A DNA stretch of 21,074 nt, from positions 1 through 21,074 of IMG/VR virus record IMGVR_UViG_3300009155_000325; one strand, 5' to 3'. Below, one piece after another: positions 1,169 to 20,930 of the stretch. The notes under the pieces were generated by a model. That model searched no databases, had not been told where the DNA came from, and was given only the letters and a program-made list of their open reading frames with translations. The stretch is from a virus. A program made the translations under genes and the position numbers. Each line of letters opens with the position of its first letter. Positions within the stretch are counted from its first letter, which is position 1.

Positions 1169-2377
1169 GTGTCTAACTCAATCCTAACCATCGACATGAT
1201 CACGCGCAAAGCGCTTGAAATTCTCGAAAACAACTTGGTACTTACTCGTAACGTAAACCGCCAGTACGATGACAGCTTTGCTGTGCAAGGTGCCAAAATT
1301 GGTTCCACGCTGCGTATCCGTCTTCCTGACCGCGCTTTGGTTACTGACGGTGCCGCCCTGCAAGTTCAGGACGACAACGAGCAGTACACCACTTTGTCTG
1401 TTGCAAGCCAGAAACACATTGGTGTTAACTTCACCTCTGCCGAACTGACCATGCAATTGGACGACTTCGCAGAGCGTGTTCTTAAGCCTCGTATCAGCCA
1501 GTTGGCCTCCAGCATTGATGCTGACGTTGCTAACTGCTTCAAGACCATCGGCAACACCGTCGGCACCCCTGGAACGACTCCTTCGACTTCTTTGGTGCTG
1601 TTGCAAGCCCAGCAGAAGCTGAATGAGAACGCTGCTGTAATGTCGCCTCGCTACGCTACCGTCAATCCTGCCGCTAACGCTGGTTTGGTTGAAGGCATGA
1701 AAGGTTTGTTCAACCCCACCGACACTATCAGCAAGCAGTTCAAGAACGGCATGATGGGTACTGGCGTACTGGGCTTTGAAGAAGTCAATATGTCTCAGTC
1801 AATCAAGCAGTTCACCACGGGTTCGCGTGATGCATCCGCTGCCACCATTGTTGCTGCTTCGGTGACTTCGGAAGGTGCTTCTACTATCAGCTTGTCGCAA
1901 GCCTCTGTAACCACGACCATCAAAGCTGGTGACGTGTTTACCTGCGGTAGCGTCTTTGCTGTGAACCCACAAACCCGTGAAACCACTGGTTCGTTGTTCC
2001 AGTTTGTGGCTCTGGCTGATGCAACCGCTGTGTCTGGCACTTGGACCGTGACTGTGGCTCCCATGTATTCCGCTGCTCACGCACTGGCTACCATGACTGC
2101 CCTGCCACTGATCAGCGCTGTTGTGACCTTTGTTGGCACTGCTTCTACGGCTTACGCACAGAACTTGATCTACCACAAGGACGCAATAACATTTGCCACG
2201 GCTGACCTGTTGCTGCCCCAAGGTGTTGACATGGCTGCTCGCGCAGTGCATAACGGTATTAGCTTGCGTGTTGTTCGTCAGTACGACATCAACAATGACC
2301 GTATGCCTTGCCGTATTGACGTTTTGTACGGTTTCAGCACAATCCGTCCTCAGATGGCTTGCCGTCTGTGGGGCTAA
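1169..2377 (+). CDS. Major capsid (coat) protein, P22 gp5 family
   Basis: Encodes 402 residues from a GTG at 1169. This start is chosen because AAAGGA (1156-1161) lies 7 nt upstream and the protein then begins VSNSILTIDMITRKALEIL; an in-frame ATG at 1127 would overlap the scaffold gene and add an unlikely leader. The N-terminal pattern ITRKALEILENN, then RQYDDSF, then GSTLRIRLP, is what I recall of the P22 coat family (gp5, 430 residues), an HK97-fold shell protein. A Ser/Thr/Ala-rich middle (~220-320) likely covers an inserted beta domain. The end DRMPCRIDVLYG..IRPQMACRLWG also fits the family. It follows the scaffold gene by 20 nt and is followed by a GC hairpin. Cytoplasmic assembly role, very abundant product expected. 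Confidence 0.9.
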   Translation: MSNSILTIDMITRKALEILENNLVLTRNVNRQYDDSFAVQGAKIGSTLRIRLPDRALVTDGAALQVQDDNEQYTTLSVASQKHIGVNFTSAELTMQLDDFAERVLKPRISQLASSIDADVANCFKTIGNTVGTPGTTPSTSLVLLQAQQKLNENAAVMSPRYATVNPAANAGLVEGMKGLFNPTDTISKQFKNGMMGTGVLGFEEVNMSQSIKQFTTGSRDASAATIVAASVTSEGASTISLSQASVTTTIKAGDVFTCGSVFAVNPQTRETTGSLFQFVALADATAVSGTWTVTVAPMYSAAHALATMTALPLISAVVTFVGTASTAYAQNLIYHKDAITFATADLLLPQGVDMAARAVHNGISLRVVRQYDINNDRMPCRIDVLYGFSTIRPQMACRLWG

Positions 2378-2384
2378 ATTGAAC

Positions 2385-2400
2385 GGGGCTTTGGCCCCTT
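2385..2400 (+). terminator. Terminator-like hairpin after the coat gene
   Basis: GGGGC (2385-2389) and GCCCC (2394-2398) form a 5-bp stem around TTTG, followed by TTCTCTCT. The downstream tract is weak, so partial termination or 3'-end protection of coat mRNA is more likely than a full stop, since structural genes continue downstream. Confidence 0.5.
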
Positions 2401-2430
2401 CTCTCTAAACATCTTTTTAAGGAAATTATC

Positions 2431-2853
2431 ATGGCTCTCCCTAATGGCGCAGGCGGTTACCAACTTGGTGACGGCAATCTGTCTGAAGTTCAAATTCGCA
2501 CCCAAGCTACCCCAGCAACGGCAACTGTCACAGCAACTCTGACAACTGCTCAAATTCTGAATGGTATCCTTTTGGGCACTCCTACCACCACCGCAGCCGC
2601 ATACACTTTGCCTTTGTGTACTGATCTGGACGCAGCCGTCCCCAGTGCTAAAAACAACAGCTGTTTTGACTTTACGGTGATCAACACCAATGGTTCCGGC
2701 AGCGGCGTGATTACAATCACCACCAACACCGGCTGGACTATTGGTTCGTCTGGCACTCAAGGCTTGATGACTGTTACCACTGCTGGCACGGCGCAAACTT
2801 ACCGCGCAGTCAGAACTGGTGACGCTGCCTGGTCTTTGTATCGCGTTGGCTAA
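2431..2853 (+). CDS. Small beta-rich virion protein, candidate capsid decoration protein
   Basis: Encodes 140 residues rich in Thr, Gly, Ala and Val with few charges. Regular alternating segments such as FDFTVINTN, GVITITTNTGWTI and AWSLYRVG suggest a compact beta-sandwich. There is no signal peptide or membrane helix. The ATG at 2431 is preceded by AAGGAAATTATC, a good ribosome binding site. It sits between two similar hairpins immediately after the coat gene, the usual place of head decoration proteins, and its composition matches such proteins. I recognise no named family; the decoration role is inferred from position and composition. A tail or head-fibre subunit is the alternative. Confidence 0.6.
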   Translation: MALPNGAGGYQLGDGNLSEVQIRTQATPATATVTATLTTAQILNGILLGTPTTTAAAYTLPLCTDLDAAVPSAKNNSCFDFTVINTNGSGSGVITITTNTGWTIGSSGTQGLMTVTTAGTAQTYRAVRTGDAAWSLYRVG

Positions 2854-2861
2854 TATGAACG

Positions 2862-2882
2862 GGGGCTTCGGCCCCTGTTTTT
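2862..2882 (+). terminator. Hairpin with TTCG tetraloop and T-tract
   Basis: GGGGC (2862-2866) pairs with GCCCC (2871-2875) around the stable TTCG loop, followed by TG and five T residues (2878-2882). This resembles an intrinsic terminator. Directly after it comes AAAGGAAATAATT, the ribosome binding site of the gene at 2896. The hairpin plus ribosome-site block closely resembles the one at 2385-2430. Confidence 0.6.
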
Positions 2883-2895
2883 AAAGGAAATAATT

Positions 2896-3336
2896 ATGGC
2901 AAATACAAAATCTATTGGTGTTGCTTTTGAAGATCAAGACCTTAAAGGTTCAGCAACAATCTATGCTTTAGCCGGAAGTGGGCAACTGGGGTACAACACT
3001 GGAAGTTCTACTACAGTGCCTTCAACTGTTACCCAAGCTACCAGCAAGTCTACTGGCGTAACCATCAACGCATCTGTTGGTCAAATTGTTACTAACAACG
3101 CTGCTTTGGCAGCTGCTACTGAAGTTGCATTTGTCGTGACAAATAGCGCGGTTAGTGCTTATGATGTTCCAATAGTGGCATTAGCAAGCGGCGCAGCCAC
3201 GGCGGGGACGTATTTGCTTTCAGTGGCCGCTGTGGCCGCTGGATCATTTACCGTGGTAATTTCAAATGCATCCGCAGGCAGCTTGTCTGAGGCGCTTACT
3301 TTGAATTTTGCTTTGATTCACGTTGCACAAGCGTAA
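2896..3336 (+). CDS. Small Ala/Thr-rich virion protein, candidate decoration or trimeric beta protein
   Basis: Encodes 146 residues. The segment ATSKSTGVTINASVGQIVTN followed by NNAALAAATEVAFVVTNS and a GSLSEALTLNFALIH ending resembles a family I remember from environmental phage genomes next to the coat gene, usually left as hypothetical. Composition is Ala/Ser/Thr/Val with almost no charged residues in the C-terminal two thirds, consistent with an all-beta, externally exposed or trimeric domain. The start is supported by AAAGGAAATAATT just upstream. A strong hairpin with T-tract follows the stop. Function is inferred only. Confidence 0.6.
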   Translation: MANTKSIGVAFEDQDLKGSATIYALAGSGQLGYNTGSSTTVPSTVTQATSKSTGVTINASVGQIVTNNAALAAATEVAFVVTNSAVSAYDVPIVALASGAATAGTYLLSVAAVAAGSFTVVISNASAGSLSEALTLNFALIHVAQA

Positions 3337-3339
3337 AAG

Positions 3340-3366
3340 AAGGGGGCGTAAAAACCCCCCTTTTTT
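3340..3366 (+). terminator. Strong intrinsic terminator-like hairpin
   Basis: A stem AAGGGGG (3340-3346) with CCCCCTT (3356-3362) encloses a 9-nt loop, and the T-run covers 3361-3366. This is the most convincing intrinsic terminator in the window. It lies directly upstream of another same-strand gene, so downstream tail genes need read-through or an unseen promoter. Confidence 0.7.
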
Positions 3367-3369
3367 AAC

Positions 3370-3561
3370 ATGATCATCTACCTAATGCACCCCGTCCACG
3401 GGCGAAAAGTTGCCACAATGGAGCTTGAAGCTGAATACGATGAGAAAAACGGCTGGTCGCGGTACAATCCCGATACGCCTGCTTTAGTCTCTGAACCAGA
3501 TACAAATGCGCTAAACATCAAGCGCAAATACACGCGCAAGGCTGTAACCGAGGAAATCTAA
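3370..3561 (+). CDS. Small hypothetical protein between capsid and head-tail genes
   Basis: Encodes 63 residues beginning MIIYLMHPVHGRKVATMELE and ending with a Lys/Arg-rich tail (IKRKYTRKA). The pattern HPVHGRKVA...E.E...KNGW..Y looks like a small compact domain found in phage structural regions, but I cannot name it. The ATG at 3370 sits three bases after the terminator T-run and has no Shine-Dalgarno, so the start is uncertain; ATG 3385 is an alternative. It ends 1 nt before the next ATG, and its last codons carry GAGGA (3550-3554), the ribosome binding site of the gp4-like gene. Confidence 0.55.
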   Translation: MIIYLMHPVHGRKVATMELEAEYDEKNGWSRYNPDTPALVSEPDTNALNIKRKYTRKAVTEEI

Positions 3562-4279: not shown

Positions 4280-5745
4280 TGAAAACGCCAATTCTTGGCG
4301 CATCGTATGTTGCCCGTAGCATCAATGCTGCGGACAACCGCATGGTCAACCTGTTTCCTGAAATTGTCCCCGAGGGTGGCAAGGAGGCTGGGTTTCTAAA
4401 TCGTGCGCCAGGTCTTAACTTCTTGCAAACCGTAGGCACCGGCCCTATTCGGGCATTGTGGGCGCACCAGACCAATGGCACAGACTTCTATGTTGTTTCA
4501 GGCACCGAGGTCTACAAACTTACTGGATTGACAGCTACACCTGTCAAGATTGGCAATGTATCTGGAACTGGCCCAGTTTCTATTGCTGACAATGGTGCGG
4601 TGTTATTCTTTGCCTGTAATGGCCCAAGCTACACCTATTACGAACCAACTAACGAGTTTAACCAGATTACAGATGTCAACTTCCCTGGCGCTGTAACGGT
4701 TGGTTATCTAGATACCCAATTTATTTTTAACGAGCCAAATAGCCAACGGCTCTGGTCGGTGGATACGATAAACCCTGCAAATGGTGACTACATCTACCCG
4801 CTAGTGTTTAATCCCTTGTTTTTTTCTAGCGCAGACGGCTCTCCAGACGGCGTGGTGGCAATCAATAGTGACCACCGTCAACTTTGGGTGTTTGGCACTG
4901 ACTCGACTGAAGTTTGGTACAACGCTGGCCTTGCCAACTTCCCTTTAACGCCCATTCAAGGCGCTTTTAATGAAGTTGGATGTGTAGCTGCTTACTCTGT
5001 TGCCAAGCTCGATAACACCCTGTTCTGGCTCGGTACAGACGCCCGTGGTCAGGGTATTGTCTACAAAGCCAACGGATACTCAGCACTTAGGGTTTCTACC
5101 CATGCCATTGAGTACGCAATAGCTCAATACGGCAATCTGGCTAATGCTTTGGCCTATACATACCAACAAGAAGGTCATGCCTTTTACGTGCTAACGTTTC
5201 CCAGCGCCAACGCAACATGGGTTTACGATGTGTCCACCCAAGCCTGGCACGAACGTGCAGGGTTTGACAATGGCGAGTTTGTGCGGCACCGCAGCAACTG
5301 CCAGTGCAACTTTAGCGGCAATACTGTAGTAGGCGATTTTGAGAACGGCAACATCTACACGCTTGACTTGGATGTGTACGCTGACAATGGTGGCATTCAA
5401 AAATGGCTGCGCTCATGGCGGGCGCTGCCTACCGGCCAGAACAACCTAAAGCGCACAGCGCAGCACAGCCTCCAGCTTGACTGCGAAACAGGCGTTGGCC
5501 TAAATACCGGCCAAGGCTCTACTCCAGAGGCCATGCTGCGCTGGTCTGATGATGGCGGTCACACTTGGTCCAATGAGCATTGGCGCGAGATGGGTGCCAT
5601 CGGCCAATACGGATACCGCACGATCTGGCGGCGATTGGGCATGACTCAAAAAATTCGTGACCGAGTTTATGAAGTATCTGGCACCGATCCCGTGAAGATT
5701 GCCATCATGGGTGCTGAGTTGTTGATTTCACCGACGAACGCATAA
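4279..5745 (+). CDS. Packaged-DNA stabilisation protein, P22 gp10-like
   Basis: Encodes 488 residues, close to P22 gp10 (472). It begins MKTPILGASYVARSINAADN with NLFPEIVPEGGK just after, a family signature. Repeated beta-strand and Gly/Asn/Thr-rich segments fit the beta-propeller-like hub that closes the portal channel after DNA packaging. Recognisable internal pieces are TDSTEVWYNAG and the C-terminal WSDDGGHTWSNEHWREMGAIGQYGYR with W-R-R-L-G. Translation is probably coupled to the gp4-like gene through the TAATG overlap, and the same overlap joins it to the gene after. Confidence is high from the conserved N-terminus, length and position. Confidence 0.88.
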   Translation: MKTPILGASYVARSINAADNRMVNLFPEIVPEGGKEAGFLNRAPGLNFLQTVGTGPIRALWAHQTNGTDFYVVSGTEVYKLTGLTATPVKIGNVSGTGPVSIADNGAVLFFACNGPSYTYYEPTNEFNQITDVNFPGAVTVGYLDTQFIFNEPNSQRLWSVDTINPANGDYIYPLVFNPLFFSSADGSPDGVVAINSDHRQLWVFGTDSTEVWYNAGLANFPLTPIQGAFNEVGCVAAYSVAKLDNTLFWLGTDARGQGIVYKANGYSALRVSTHAIEYAIAQYGNLANALAYTYQQEGHAFYVLTFPSANATWVYDVSTQAWHERAGFDNGEFVRHRSNCQCNFSGNTVVGDFENGNIYTLDLDVYADNGGIQKWLRSWRALPTGQNNLKRTAQHSLQLDCETGVGLNTGQGSTPEAMLRWSDDGGHTWSNEHWREMGAIGQYGYRTIWRRLGMTQKIRDRVYEVSGTDPVKIAIMGAELLISPTNA

Positions 5746-6440
5746 TGGCCGGATCATATTCACAAATTCCTGCGCCTCGCGTCCCCTTCTTGGACCCGCA
5801 GACAAACATGGTTTCACCACAATGGTTTTTGTGGTTTAACAATGTTTACGGCATTACGGGCAGCGGCGTTGGCATTGTTGCAGTAGCAAATGGTGGTACG
5901 GGTTTAGGCACGGCCCCCGCCAACGGCCAATTGCTAATTGGCAACGGTACAGGGTATTCCCTTAACACCTTGTTCGCTGGAACTGGCATAACCGTAACTA
6001 ACGGCTCTGGTTCAATTTCAATTATCAATAGTTTGCCAGATCAGACGGTGGTGCTTACGGGTGCTGGCACAAACGTGGTTACTGGTACTTACCCTAACTT
6101 TACAATTACATCAACCGCCGTAACCAGCGTAAGCGGAACGGGCACTGTCAACGGCATTACGTTAACTGGGACAGTCACAAGCACAGGCAGTTTGACCCTT
6201 GGCGGCACCCTTAGCGGCGTAAGTCTGACCACTCAGGTTAGCGGTGTATTGCCAGTGGCAAATGGTGGCACAGGATTAGGAGTAGCCTATACCGTAGCAA
6301 CGTTGCCAGCAGCAGGGACGCAAGGGCGCAGATCATGGGTGACTGATGCTTTGGCACCAGCATTCGGGGCGGCTCCAGTTGGCGGTGGGGCGGTGGTTAT
6401 CCCCGTGTTTGACAACGGCACAATTTGGATTGTTGGATAA
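5745..6440 (+). CDS. Tail tip or fibre protein, Gly/Thr-rich
   Basis: Encodes 231 residues. The N-terminal ~35 residues (IPAPRVPFLDPQTNMVSPQW then FLWFNNVYG) look like a virion-attachment segment seen at the start of many phage tail proteins. The rest is a low-charge Gly/Thr/Val/Ser-rich region with repeated motifs: VANGGTGLG appears twice (around residues 46 and 171), with several TGTVTSTGSLTLGG-like strands between, consistent with a trimeric beta fibre. It occupies the slot of the P22 tail needle gene 26 and has a similar length (233 in P22, from memory), but lacks the coiled coil of gp26, so a fibre or tip protein is the safer label. Its start overlaps the previous stop (TAATG). Confidence 0.7.
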   Translation: MAGSYSQIPAPRVPFLDPQTNMVSPQWFLWFNNVYGITGSGVGIVAVANGGTGLGTAPANGQLLIGNGTGYSLNTLFAGTGITVTNGSGSISIINSLPDQTVVLTGAGTNVVTGTYPNFTITSTAVTSVSGTGTVNGITLTGTVTSTGSLTLGGTLSGVSLTTQVSGVLPVANGGTGLGVAYTVATLPAAGTQGRRSWVTDALAPAFGAAPVGGGAVVIPVFDNGTIWIVG

Positions 6441-17585: not shown

Positions 17586-18251
17586 ATGGCTATTTCGTTA
17601 AAACGCACTAGCGGCCTCAGTGCCAACGGTGTCAAATTGCTTGTCTACGGACAGGCTGGTGCGGGTAAGACAAGTCTGATCAAGACGTTGCCAAGCCCCG
17701 TTGTATTGTCTGCCGAGGGTGGATTATTGTCCATTCAAGACGCTGACCTTCCTTACTTGGAAATTACAAGTATGGATGATTTGCGGGAAGCCTACTCATG
17801 GGTTTTGGAGTCTGATTACAAGAGCGTAGCCCTTGATTCGATTTCTGAGATCGCCGAAGTTTGCCTGAATCATGAAAAGAAGGTCAACAAAGACCCACGC
17901 GCTGCCTATGGCGCTATGCAAGAACAGATGGCTGACATTATTCGGGCATTCCGCGACATTCCAGGTCGCCACGTTCTGATGACCGCCAAACTGGAAAAGA
18001 CCCAAGACGAGATGGGACGGGTTCTGTACAGCCCTTCAATGCCAGGTAACAAAACCGGCCAAGCGCTGCCCTACTTTTTCGACGAGGTGTTAGCACTACG
18101 GGTTGAGAAAGACGCCGAGGGCAACACCCAACGCGCCCTGATGTGCGACTCTGACGGCCTGTGGCTTGCCAAAGACCGCAGCGGCAAGTTGAGCGCATGG
18201 GAAGCCCCTGACTTGGGCGAGATCATTGCCAAGATTGGCGGTGCAGCATGA
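17586..18251 (+). CDS. Sak4-like RecA-fold ATPase, recombinase
   Basis: Encodes 221 residues. Walker A is G22-Q-A-G-A-G-K28-T29 after a beta-strand (VKLLVYG); Walker B is V-A-L-D84-S-I. The compact length, the early P-loop, and the segments YGAMQEQMADIIRAFRD and the DxxGRxxYSPSMPGN-like area match the AAA_24/Sak4 group of phage recombination proteins, RecA-core ATPases that promote single-strand annealing or strand exchange with a phage ssDNA-binding protein. Such a protein (DUF669) and a nuclease are encoded downstream. AAGGAG (17574-17579) is a strong ribosome site 6 nt from the ATG. It is the first gene of the operon; its stop overlaps the next ATG. Confidence 0.83.
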   Translation: MAISLKRTSGLSANGVKLLVYGQAGAGKTSLIKTLPSPVVLSAEGGLLSIQDADLPYLEITSMDDLREAYSWVLESDYKSVALDSISEIAEVCLNHEKKVNKDPRAAYGAMQEQMADIIRAFRDIPGRHVLMTAKLEKTQDEMGRVLYSPSMPGNKTGQALPYFFDEVLALRVEKDAEGNTQRALMCDSDGLWLAKDRSGKLSAWEAPDLGEIIAKIGGAA

Positions 18252-18436
18252 AGCCTGTTATCAGCCTTACCGATCTGATTGCCATTCAGAATGCCTTTAT
18301 TACCCTGTACGGCATTGTGGATGAGGTCCATCTGAACGCTGGTCAGTTTGAACGCAAGCTGGATTGCGTACACGGTAGGGTTGTACTTAACCGAGTGATG
18401 GCATCACTTAACGCAGAATTTGAGGTGACAGCATGA
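18248..18436 (+). CDS. Small hypothetical protein in recombination operon
   Basis: Encodes 62 residues, mainly helical (VISLTDLIAIQNAFITLYGI; ERKLDCVHGRVVLNRVM). It overlaps the upstream stop and the downstream start by four bases each (ATGA), so it is translationally coupled between the ATPase and the next small protein. No motif or family is recognised. Confidence 0.6.
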   Translation: MKPVISLTDLIAIQNAFITLYGIVDEVHLNAGQFERKLDCVHGRVVLNRVMASLNAEFEVTA

Positions 18437-18804
18437 GCCTATACCAACGCTGGCTAGAAGCCAAAAAGATGGAAACCCTTGCAGTGGCCGAGCGCCGTGA
18501 CATTGAAGATCAGATGGCTATTCACTTTGGCATTCCCAAAGACTTGGATGGCACGGTCAAAGTTGAGGAAAACGGCTTCACCATCCGCATGGAAGGCCGC
18601 ATCAACAAGAAGATTGACGCCGACAAATTGCAAGTGCTGGCTGCTGAAGCCGGTATCTCTGAACACCTTTCCAGCCTTTTCCGCTGGAAGCCCGAGATCA
18701 ATGCGAAGGCATGGAATGCGGCTGCTGACGCCGTGACTGGGCCTTTGCTTGGTGCTATCACGTCCACCCCTGGACGCCCTACTTTTACAATCACTAAGGA
18801 TTAA
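18433..18804 (+). CDS. Hypothetical phage protein, DUF7173-like
   Basis: Encodes 123 residues. An N-terminal helix (LYQRWLEAKKMETLAVAERR) is followed by DIEDQMA, a beta segment (TVKVEENGFTIRMEGRINKK) with DADKLQVLA, and the conserved-looking FRWKPEINAKAW with a terminal TSTPGRPTFTI. From memory this resembles DUF7173, a phage family commonly beside Sak4-type recombination genes; unverified and of unknown function. The ATG overlaps the previous stop. Confidence 0.68.
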   Translation: MSLYQRWLEAKKMETLAVAERRDIEDQMAIHFGIPKDLDGTVKVEENGFTIRMEGRINKKIDADKLQVLAAEAGISEHLSSLFRWKPEINAKAWNAAADAVTGPLLGAITSTPGRPTFTITKD

Positions 18805-18805
18805 T

Positions 18806-19117
18806 ATGAATATTGACAATATTCCTGCAATTACAACGCCGCATCCATTTTGCGGAAAATACGTTATAGCTCGTTGTCATATTGCTGGTGTACACGCCGG
18901 AGAAGTTGTGAGCGCAGATGGCGAGAATGTCATTCTTAAAGACTCTCGACGTTTGTGGTCATGGAAAGCAAAGGACGGAATTGCTCTTTCTGGAGTGGCG
19001 CAAAACGGCCTTAAATCAGATAGCAAAATTGACACAATGAACCCTTTGATTTTTTTAACTGGTGTATGCGAACTTATTGTTTGCTCTGACGCCGCAAAGG
19101 AATCAATTAATGGCTGA
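18806..19117 (+). CDS. Hypothetical phage protein, DUF6948-like
   Basis: Encodes 103 residues from the ATG at 18806, with AAGGA (18796-18800) five bases upstream; a longer in-frame reading from 18749 would overlap the previous gene. The pattern KYVIARCHIAGVHAGEVVSA, LKDSRRLWSWKA, ALSGVAQNGL and a late LTGVCELIVC agrees with my memory of DUF6948, small beta-rich phage proteins of unknown function; not verified. The last 8 nt overlap the start of the glycine-repeat gene. Confidence 0.7.
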   Translation: MNIDNIPAITTPHPFCGKYVIARCHIAGVHAGEVVSADGENVILKDSRRLWSWKAKDGIALSGVAQNGLKSDSKIDTMNPLIFLTGVCELIVCSDAAKESING

Positions 19118-19352
19118 ACAATTTATTGATGGATCAGGCTATGGTGCTGGCGATGGCACTGGCGATGGCTCCGGCTATGGCTATGGCTATGGCGATGGCT
19201 GTGGCGCTGGCGGTGGGTGGGGAATTGGCACTGGCTCTGGTGCTGGCTCTGGCAGTGGCTTTGGAACTGGCTCTGGCTATGGTGCTGGCACTGGTCTTGG
19301 CTATGGTGACGGCAATGGCACTGGCACTAGCGTTGCCGGTGGTTGGAATTAA
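19110..19352 (+). CDS. Glycine-alternating (X-Gly)n repeat protein
   Basis: Encodes 80 residues starting at ATG 19110, with AAAGG about ten bases upstream. After the leader MAEQFID, glycine occupies every even position from 8 to 72, giving 33 consecutive X-Gly pairs; the X residues are mainly Ser, Thr, Tyr, Asp and Ala, with no Lys or Arg. The tail is TSVAGGWN. The DNA shows hexamer-like periodicity (GGC TAT, GGC GAT, GGC ACT). Strict Gly alternation could form a flat beta structure as in silk-like GAGAGS peptides, or stay disordered; no function is known. It sits between the DUF6948-like and DUF669 genes. Adjacent-frame ORFs here are repeat artefacts. Confidence 0.7.
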   Translation: MAEQFIDGSGYGAGDGTGDGSGYGYGYGDGCGAGGGWGIGTGSGAGSGSGFGTGSGYGAGTGLGYGDGNGTGTSVAGGWN

Positions 19353-19378
19353 CAAATTACATTTTTTAGGATTAAATC

Positions 19379-19864
19379 ATGGCTTTTTTAGACGAAGAAT
19401 TTAGCGTTGACACGCTGCCCGTTGGTAATAACAACTTTGAACCCCTGCCCGAGGGCTGGTACAACGCCACTATTACTGGTGCTGAGATCAAGTCCACCAA
19501 AGCAGGCGATGGCAAGTTTATTGCGGTCAAGTACACCATCACTGGCCCCAGCCATCAAGGGCGGGTTGTATTTGGTAACCTCAACATCAAGAACGCAAGC
19601 ACCAAGGCCGAGGAGATCGGACGCCAGCAGCTTGGAGAGATCATGCGAGCCATTGGCTTGGCTAAGGTATCCGACACCGACCAACTGATTGGCGGTAACC
19701 TTGGCATCAAATTGTCGCTGAAGACTGGTGAGTATGCAGGTAACGAGGTTAAGGCATTTCGGGCTTTGGGCGGTCCCCAACCAGGAACTGTAGCGCTGTT
19801 CAAGGCTGTAGCGCCTGCCGCTACACCTGCTAAGGCCGCGCCACCTTGGGCTAAGAGCAAGTAA
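19379..19864 (+). CDS. Single-stranded-DNA-binding protein, DUF669 type
   Basis: Encodes 161 residues of the DUF669 (PF05037) type, an OB-fold-like ssDNA-binding family found in phage recombination operons. Key parts are the N-terminal PLPEGWYNATITGAEIK, KFIAVKYTITGPSHQGRVVF, NIKNASTKAEEIGRQQLGEI and the C-terminal KTGEYAGNEVKAFRAL. The end APPWAKSK is Pro/Ala-rich and basic rather than the acidic tail of bacterial SSB; it may still be the contact point for Sak4 or the nuclease. AGGATTAAATC precedes the ATG. A GC stem-loop follows the stop and separates it from the nuclease gene. Confidence 0.83.
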   Translation: MAFLDEEFSVDTLPVGNNNFEPLPEGWYNATITGAEIKSTKAGDGKFIAVKYTITGPSHQGRVVFGNLNIKNASTKAEEIGRQQLGEIMRAIGLAKVSDTDQLIGGNLGIKLSLKTGEYAGNEVKAFRALGGPQPGTVALFKAVAPAATPAKAAPPWAKSK

Positions 19865-19922: not shown

Positions 19923-20930
19923 ATGCAAATACCTGAACCCGAGATTACCATAACTTCCTTGATTGATCAAGCCCATGAGGCACGGCTAGAAAAGCCTCGT
20001 GCCCACCTTGGTTGCTCAATGCTAGGCCACCACTGTGATCGCTGGCTATGGCTGTCGTTTCGTTGGGCGGTGCAGGAAAAGTTTAAGGGCCGCATTCTGC
20101 GCTTGTTTCGGCGTGGTCAGAATGAAGAGGCCACTATCATCAGCGACCTGCGCGCCATTAAAATGACCGTATCAGGCACCCAACGCCGAGTGGACTTTGG
20201 TAGCCACGTTAGCGGCAGCTTGGACGGCATTGGCAAGGGGGTGCCTGGTGCGCCAAAGTCCGAACACGTTCTAGAATTCAAAACCCACAGTCTCAAGTCA
20301 TTCAATGACTTGGAGAAAAATGGCGTGGCAAAGAGTAAGCCCATGCACTTCACACAATGCCAAGTGTATATGCACGGCACCGACCTGAAACGCGCTTTGT
20401 ATGTCGCCGTCTGCAAAGACGATGACCGTGTATATACAGAGCGCCTAGAGTATAACCGCGCCCATGCAGAGAAAGCCATTGCCAGAGGCCAGCGCCTTAC
20501 CCTGACCGACCGCCTGCCACCACCCATCAGCACCGACCCTACTTGGTTTGAGTGCAAGATGTGCGCGGCGCATGACTTCTGCCACGGCAGCAAGACCACT
20601 AAAGAAGTTAACTGCCGCACCTGCGCCCATGCAACGCCATTGTCCGATTCAACATGGCACTGCGCCAAGTGGGATGCCATCATACCAATTGAGGCGCAGC
20701 ATACCGGCTGCGAGAGCCATGTTATTCGCCCTGATCTGGTGCCGTGGAAGCGGCTGGAAAGCCCTAGCGATTGGGTGGCGGTCTATGAGATTAACGGGCA
20801 GGGCTTGGCTAATGGTGAGCCAGGCGAGGGTGTGTATAGCAGCAAGGAATTGTTGGCTAATGCTGCGGCTTGCGCTGACCCTACGGTTAATCGGCTGCGG
20901 GGTGAGTTTGATGCTAGGGTGGTGGCGTAA
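19923..20930 (+). CDS. Cas4/RecB-like PD-(D/E)XK nuclease with Fe-S-type cysteines
   Basis: Encodes 335 residues. Motifs run in the expected order: N-terminal HLGCSMLGHHCDRW with C38; G-S-L-D101-G; the catalytic E118-F-K120 in HVLEFKTHS; and the Gln motif HFTQCQVYM (Q145). C38 together with C211-x2-C214-x5-C220 matches the four-cysteine set that holds a 4Fe-4S cluster in Cas4 and AddB nucleases. An extra Cys-rich patch (C231-x2-C234...C247) follows. It would process DNA ends for the Sak4/ssDNA-binding annealing pathway. AGGAG (19910-19914) lies 8 nt before the ATG. No CRISPR array or other cas gene is visible, so this is a phage recombination exonuclease, not an adaptation protein. Confidence 0.82.
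   Translation: MQIPEPEITITSLIDQAHEARLEKPRAHLGCSMLGHHCDRWLWLSFRWAVQEKFKGRILRLFRRGQNEEATIISDLRAIKMTVSGTQRRVDFGSHVSGSLDGIGKGVPGAPKSEHVLEFKTHSLKSFNDLEKNGVAKSKPMHFTQCQVYMHGTDLKRALYVAVCKDDDRVYTERLEYNRAHAEKAIARGQRLTLTDRLPPPISTDPTWFECKMCAAHDFCHGSKTTKEVNCRTCAHATPLSDSTWHCAKWDAIIPIEAQHTGCESHVIRPDLVPWKRLESPSDWVAVYEINGQGLANGEPGEGVYSSKELLANAAACADPTVNRLRGEFDARVVA

Follow-up and report, generated by a model that had tools for sequence, protein, structure and literature searches.

A phage two-gene cassette pairing DUF6948, a predicted Sm-like protein, with a strictly alternating X-Gly chain

Low-complexity domains of the FUS/hnRNP type, built on [G/S]Y[G/S] motifs, carry tyrosines spaced by Gly or Ser, contain few basic residues and are free in residue order. 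In the crystalline repeats of silk fibroin, Gly occupies each second residue and the positions between are mainly Ala or Ser. Among the small beta-barrels of the Sm, LSm, Hfq and Rof type, the Sm-like protein Rof is reported to inhibit Rho (PMC11018626). A comparison of Iodobacter phage phiPLPE lists a DNA repeat, (KMGCCG)35, at 46,046-46,255 of that genome and speculates that it is an attachment site (PMC3391216). The Pfam entry PF22253 (DUF6948) is a domain of unknown function. Here we report a phage gene pair that can be compared with each of these: DUF6948 and a protein of alternating X-Gly residues (termed XG). No description of this pair was found in the open-access literature, earlier notice elsewhere being possible; the name DUF6948 was itself absent from the literature searched, and we found no record of an Sm-like fold or an XG partner for the family.

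The window (the whole stretch of viral DNA that was analysed, 21,074 nucleotides) contains the pair within an operon of the order Sak4, small ORF, DUF7173, DUF6948, XG, DUF669 and Cas4 exonuclease. The features are as follows:

17586..18251, + strand: Sak4-like ssDNA annealing protein, same operon (PHROG 124, E = 5.5e-56)
18433..18804, + strand: DUF7173 protein, left neighbour, outside the cassette (PF23791, E = 6e-15)
18806..19378, + strand: cassette of DUF6948 and XG, between the DUF7173 stop and the DUF669 start
18806..19117, + strand: DUF6948 protein, 103 aa, partner of XG (PF22253, E = 9.8e-27)
19097..19101, + strand: Shine-Dalgarno-like AAGGA, 8 nt 5' of the XG ATG
19110..19117, + strand: overlap of the XG start and the DUF6948 stop, ATGGCTGA, 8 bp, read from the sequence
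19110..19352, + strand: XG protein, 80 aa; leader MAEQFI, 33 X-Gly pairs (residues 7-72), tail TSVAGGWN
19379..19864, + strand: DUF669 protein (SSB-like), right neighbour, outside the cassette (PF05037; PHROG 6015, single strand DNA binding protein, E = 7e-24)
19923..20930, + strand: Cas4-domain exonuclease, same operon (PHROG 1990, E = 2e-97)

The XG ORF runs from its ATG (19110) to a TAA (19352) and encodes MAEQFIDGSGYGAGDGTGDGSGYGYGYGDGCGAGGGWGIGTGSGAGSGSGFGTGSGYGAGTGLGYGDGNGTGTSVAGGWN. Gly is present at 33 of 33 even positions from 8 to 72, so that the 33 unbroken X-Gly pairs reported in the first-pass annotation are exact; at the ORF's own Gly frequency (0.45), a run of 33 Gly has p ~4e-12. 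The X residues are Ser (6), Tyr (6), Asp (5), Thr (5) and Ala (4), with C, G, W, I, F, L and N occurring once each. Lys, Arg and His are absent from these positions, in agreement with the statement that X is never basic, but the statement that it is almost always Ser, Thr, Tyr, Asp or Ala was slightly strong (26/33, 79%). Compared with the average XG tract, that of the window contains more Thr and Ala, and less Tyr and Asp. A ribosome site of its own and an overlap with the upstream gene had also been proposed, and both are present, as AAGGA at a distance of 8 nt from the ATG and as the last 8 bp of the DUF6948 ORF. The position and composition of the window XG recur in more than 100 other loci, where the XG start codon again lies mostly within the end of the DUF6948 gene, and a Shine-Dalgarno-like motif precedes 96 of 116 XG genes. 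Owing to their overlap, the two genes are probably translationally coupled. The window XG protein had no match in Pfam or PHROG, and neither XG nor DUF6948 had one in PADLOC (E ≤ 0.1) or NCBIfam.

The pairing of DUF6948 with XG is well supported. A blind DNA scan for GG at six-base intervals, 16 times in succession, across viral contigs identified at least 39 loci with XG tracts dominated by Ser, Tyr, Asp and Asn, 5 of which begin at a contig edge. Among the matches listed, DUF6948 lies beside the tract in 26 of the other 34 loci, upstream of it in every case except L029. A different small gene, with a 'RGW/RGF ... NA..IR.WGTTKGLGEL'-like sequence, is found directly upstream in 7 of the 34 (2 of them more divergent), and we refer to it as the sister family. 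In total, 33 of these 34 listed loci adjoin one or the other gene family, and L021 adjoins neither; tracts of other composition (VGVG, AGAG, TGTG) were, among the matches listed, generally without such a neighbour. Searching from the partner gene gave the same picture. For 42 viral DUF6948 loci found independently of XG, the next same-strand ORF is XG in 39 of 39 eligible cases, 3 loci having been left out because the contig ends within ~50 bp of the gene. For 51 GTDB loci, XG comes next in 44 of 47, with 4 that end at the gene left out. The titles of the GTDB loci name Pseudomonadota, Bacillota, Bacteroidota, Chlorobi, Cyanobacteria, Planctomycetes, Chlamydiae, Acidobacteria and two archaeal groups, host names that call for caution as the loci are mostly metagenome bins.

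Annotated phage and bacterial records with DUF6948 carry XG in 8 of 9 cases: Chlorobiaceae phage CV-1-33, Iodobacter phiPLPE, Pectobacterium Koroua, Vibrio IKEMa6-1, N. gonorrhoeae, Monoglobus and two uncultured phages, with one of the 8 (L170) degenerate. The ninth record, MW202478, has no XG next to DUF6948, and little or no XG follows the DUF6948 genes of L176, L195 and L224, which have ample downstream sequence. The DUF6948 gene of the Pectobacterium phage had no DNA relative in E. coli genomes. By hhalign, DUF6948 and its divergent sister family are homologous (probability 94.7%, E = 6e-8), and 17 of 44 members of the sister family match PF22253 weakly. XG comes directly after the sister-family gene at 74 of 78 eligible viral loci; the same order of sister-family gene and XG occurs in Rhodobacter phage RcapNL and the Rheinheimera barbaviruses. 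In L099, DUF6948 and XG form a natural in-frame fusion. Control DNA (80 DUF669 and 108 cellular loci, 696 kb) contained 0 S/Y/D-type XG runs of 8 or more units. For one DUF family, XG is a near-obligate partner across the phages and prophages of many bacterial phyla.

The genes around the pair are those named in the first-pass annotation, which had stressed the adjacent ssDNA-binding protein gene; as a meaningful partner this gene does not hold up, the true partner being the overlapping DUF6948. All 80 closest DUF669 relatives with the same Sak4-DUF7173-DUF669-Cas4 operon are without DUF6948 and without XG, and DUF6948 is nearly always followed by XG. In two of these relatives that were read (L308, L312), the DUF7173 stop runs straight into the DUF669 start, ACTAAGGATTAATCATGGCTTTTTTAGACGAAGAATT; in the window, AGGATTAA is found on both flanks of the cassette (18797-18804 and 19368-19375). 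Absence from related phages had been proposed as a sign against a functional ORF. The ORF is indeed missing from 80 of 80, but the partner gene is missing along with it, which supports a two-gene unit. Given this joint absence at one precise site, DUF6948 and XG constitute a two-gene cassette that is gained and lost as a unit and moves horizontally among unrelated phages. Elsewhere its neighbours include genes for helicase, Erf, RecT, Gp157, SSB, exonucleases and repressors, many of them early replication or recombination genes, and no third partner gene recurs among the neighbours of the pair across loci.

The window gene is a clear, full-length member of PF22253 (93.4 bits against a curated cut-off of 27, positions 1-85 of 85), and the protein is predicted to adopt an Sm/LSm-like small beta-barrel fold. 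The AlphaFold2 model of DUF6948 (79 relatives; pLDDT 95.5, pTM 0.84) is a five-stranded barrel. In a Foldseek search of the PDB, the top 50 matches are Sm/LSm chains throughout, with probability 1.00, a target TM of 0.44-0.70 and borderline E values of 2.9e-3 to 1.1e-2 (none below 1e-3). They comprise archaeal SmAP, Lsm1-7 and Lsm2-8, Sm-sized snRNP and spliceosome chains and the small NatC subunit; the individual spliceosome and NatC chains we take to be of the Sm/LSm fold. Of the 79 members compared with Pfam, 5 match SM-ATX (Ataxin-2 SM; best E 0.0055), which ranks second among the families by number of members matched, and LSM and Hfq each have one weak match. Comparison by hhalign gave probabilities of 1.8% for archaeal LSM and 0.7% for Hfq, neither significant, with LSM still the best-scoring comparison family and aligned in the Sm1 register. 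As hhalign gave no significance, we claim a predicted Sm-like fold and not proven membership. Like the Sm, LSm, Hfq and Rof barrels, DUF6948 has an Sm1-like stretch (GVHAGEVVSADGENVILKD) and an Sm2-like stretch (IFLTGVCELI), which align with archaeal LSM by eye, and a helix precedes the barrel in a longer member. Unlike them, it carries an insertion with a helix between strands 3 and 4, lacks a significant profile match and has a separate low-complexity gene as partner. The PDB contained no sequence relative of DUF6948 or of the sister family.

Across 116 distinct tracts, X is Ser (34%), Tyr (29%), Asp (24%), Asn (6%) or Phe (2%); by class, 30% of X residues are aromatic, 26% acidic and 1% basic. 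In most tracts, the X codons use one third base throughout (all -C in 68 of 112 loci, all -T in 34 of 112), and Gly is encoded by GGC, GGT or GGG, mostly one codon per locus. The choice of third base tracks GC content only partially (r = 0.43). Shares of Ser, Tyr and Asp are similar in the TAC/GGC, TAC/GGG, TAC/GGT and TAT/GGC classes, and translation in either alternative frame would give residues that change from one codon class to another (for example A-M-A-L versus A-T-A-P). Because these shares are alike despite different third bases, selection acts on the protein, and the XG chain is under selection as such. The earlier proposal of a maintained coding sequence is borne out, since different codons repeatedly yield the S/Y/D peptide and the frame stays unbroken. 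An out-of-frame adjacent repeat is found in only 2 of 119 tracts (L170, L042), and 2% of even tract sites are not Gly. The length distribution peaks at ~34 units (median 34, interquartile range 28-40). Residue order at X is near random, with slight avoidance of DD and SS and weakly even spacing of aromatics (z = -2), and no higher-order pattern was found beyond these two.

XG changes faster than its partner protein. Between L148 and L149, the DUF6948 DNA is identical and XG differs by 36 bp; among barbavirus isolates whose partner proteins are identical or almost so, XG differs by 6-bp units or by AAC/TAC exchanges, always in frame. The uniformity of third bases, together with changes by whole units, indicates that mutation in these tracts is driven by slippage. 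Selection retains frame, period, composition and length, and hardly residue order, a pattern of conservation as expected of a composition-dependent low-complexity chain and not of a specific fold.

XG resembles the FUS/hnRNP-type domains in its tyrosines spaced by Gly and Ser, its few basic residues and its free order; it differs from them in having Gly strictly at each second residue, in being acidic and in being a stand-alone small phage gene. With silk fibroin it shares Gly at every second residue, and it differs in its Ser, Tyr and Asp at X, its ~35 pairs and, again, its nature as a small phage gene. AlphaFold2 on the natural DUF6948-XG fusion gave pLDDT <50 through the tract, no strands and no usable XG structure, a result in which disorder and an unmodelled repeat sheet look the same; the chain is predicted to be disordered. 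Together, this pLDDT and the aromatic share of X place XG with aromatics carried in a Gly/Ser-rich disordered chain. The leader, of 5-12 residues, is the sole ordinary sequence, often resembles one short strand (KxFxDG, TLTLDG) and is a candidate docking peptide.

Overlapping genes and joint inheritance make one DUF6948-XG assembly the simplest view, in which the two products would act together. By analogy to Sm, LSm and Hfq, the DUF6948 or sister protein would oligomerise and bind RNA. The XG chain, with its ~35 X-Gly pairs, may self-associate into a condensate or a loose beta-type polymer; the Sm-like protein would then nucleate the XG body, or bring RNA or a client to it, and the assembly may serve the early (replication and recombination) phase of infection. 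Oligomerisation, RNA binding, the formation of a condensate or polymer and the infection step served are inferred. Because order is free as long as Tyr, Asp and Gly are kept, we favour a condensate or polymer scaffold composed of an Sm-like, probably oligomeric protein and a Tyr-rich low-complexity chain, to which we assign a probability of about 0.3. That an Sm-like RNA-binding ring and a Tyr-rich (XG)n chain specifically build an RNP-type body in infected cells is a more doubtful proposal; if true, the Sm/LSm granules of eukaryotes would have a viral counterpart in prokaryotes, made from two separate genes. A condensate-prone or flat-sheet chain, as first suggested, stays the best physical reading, without the emphasis on its place beside an ssDNA-binding gene.

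An accessory cassette with varied neighbours makes an anti-defence or regulatory role nearly as likely. DUF6948 might block a host nucleic-acid factor, with XG as a fast-changing multivalent decoy or sponge, for counter-defence or host takeover. This tentative second choice would suit a clean insertion in the early region of unrelated phages and an XG that evolves faster than its partner, and the reported inhibition of Rho by Sm-like Rof provides a precedent. It is weakened by the absence of a match in the PADLOC defence library (E ≤ 0.1) and of a recurring third gene, and the retention of composition rather than sequence is easier to reconcile with a polymer than with a binding site in an arms race.

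Third, and unlikely, is an ordered structure, a silk-like flat beta-sheet or amyloid-like fibre with DUF6948 as cap or chaperone, in which the Gly faces would pack and Ser, Tyr and Asp would lie outside. The near-perfect Gly alternation exceeds what a sticker-spacer chain needs, and the strand-like leaders (TLTLDG, KVFTDG) are consistent with a sheet, but AlphaFold2, which may miss repeat sheets, yields none, and the near-random X order and frequent Asp are unlike the crystalline repeats of silk. An addiction pair of the toxin-antitoxin kind, one product harmful and the other neutralising, is improbable: two small overlapping genes are gained and lost together, as it would predict, but neither resembles a known toxin or antitoxin, and a specific neutraliser would hardly be expected to pair with a chain conserved only in composition.

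Far less probable is a role of the tract at the DNA level, for example in attachment or as a signal for recombination, with the ORF incidental. The (KMGCCG)35 repeat of phiPLPE is that phage's XG tract viewed as DNA, taken as a possible attachment site and not as a gene (PMC3391216). On its other strand the hexamer is GGC-KMC, which encodes Gly and then Asp, Tyr, Ser or Ala; the 210-bp repeat sits within an XG ORF (record 46,045-46,290) that is unannotated there. Yet 2 of 6 bases vary between loci (TAC/TAT, GGC/GGT/GGG) and the peptide remains of the S/Y/D type, composition shifts in the two alternative frames, the start codon, Shine-Dalgarno motif and frame are retained and the partner gene is constant; the attachment-site reading is largely refuted by the varying third bases and the conserved peptide and frame. 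Least credible of all is a neutral ORF from repeat slippage, the alternative raised in the first-pass annotation: tracts do turn over by 6-bp units, with third bases homogenised within a locus, but the tie to one gene family in many phyla, the S/Y/D composition recurring from different codons, the length optimum, the intact frame and the joint gain and loss contradict it.

This class of gene tends to escape annotation through low-complexity filters, wrong frames and the label of a DNA repeat. XG is elsewhere annotated as 'hypothetical' or 'lamprin', or called in the wrong frame, and papers on the Rheinheimera barbaviruses and RcapNL do not mention glycine-rich proteins. Many contigs end in or just 5' of XG tracts (L124, L126, L131, L139, L147, L157 and others), which suggests that the repeats break short-read assemblies and conceal the gene. 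XG provides a natural series of proteins with a two-residue period, of the same composition, free order and variable length, so that the rules of low-complexity chains and the function of DUF6948 are directly testable in laboratory phages.

Several loci depart from the common arrangement. The XG proteins of L054, L169, L171, L226 and L227 carry a C-terminal domain (FAHG ... WHxxLTGSCxxGR..F) that had no Pfam match in the members scanned. A LTSIPEGFNPTVGG-repeat protein near the pair in L073 (- strand, strand coordinates 2-662) terminates in a similar domain. Other short C-terminal domains, also with no Pfam match, follow the XG tract in L046, L072 and L083. Four tandem XG genes are found in L021 (797-1982), where no DUF6948 was seen, and upstream of DUF6948 in L029 (- strand, strand coordinates 2327-3442); the tandem copies of both loci include Arg or Lys at X. 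L099 has a second XG copy after the DUF6948-XG fusion (5715-6030). A degenerate XG tract with a frame change in a Manatee Spring phage (L170, 3264-3801) is possibly a decaying copy. Gene 25 of Chlorobiaceae phage CV-1-33 (L164, 3301-3546) has been annotated out of frame (MAMAMALAM...), and the likely gene is the XG frame at 3285-3545. In the Rheinheimera barbaviruses (L174, L175, L388-L391), the XG tract is a fast marker of length and codon use among near-identical isolates.
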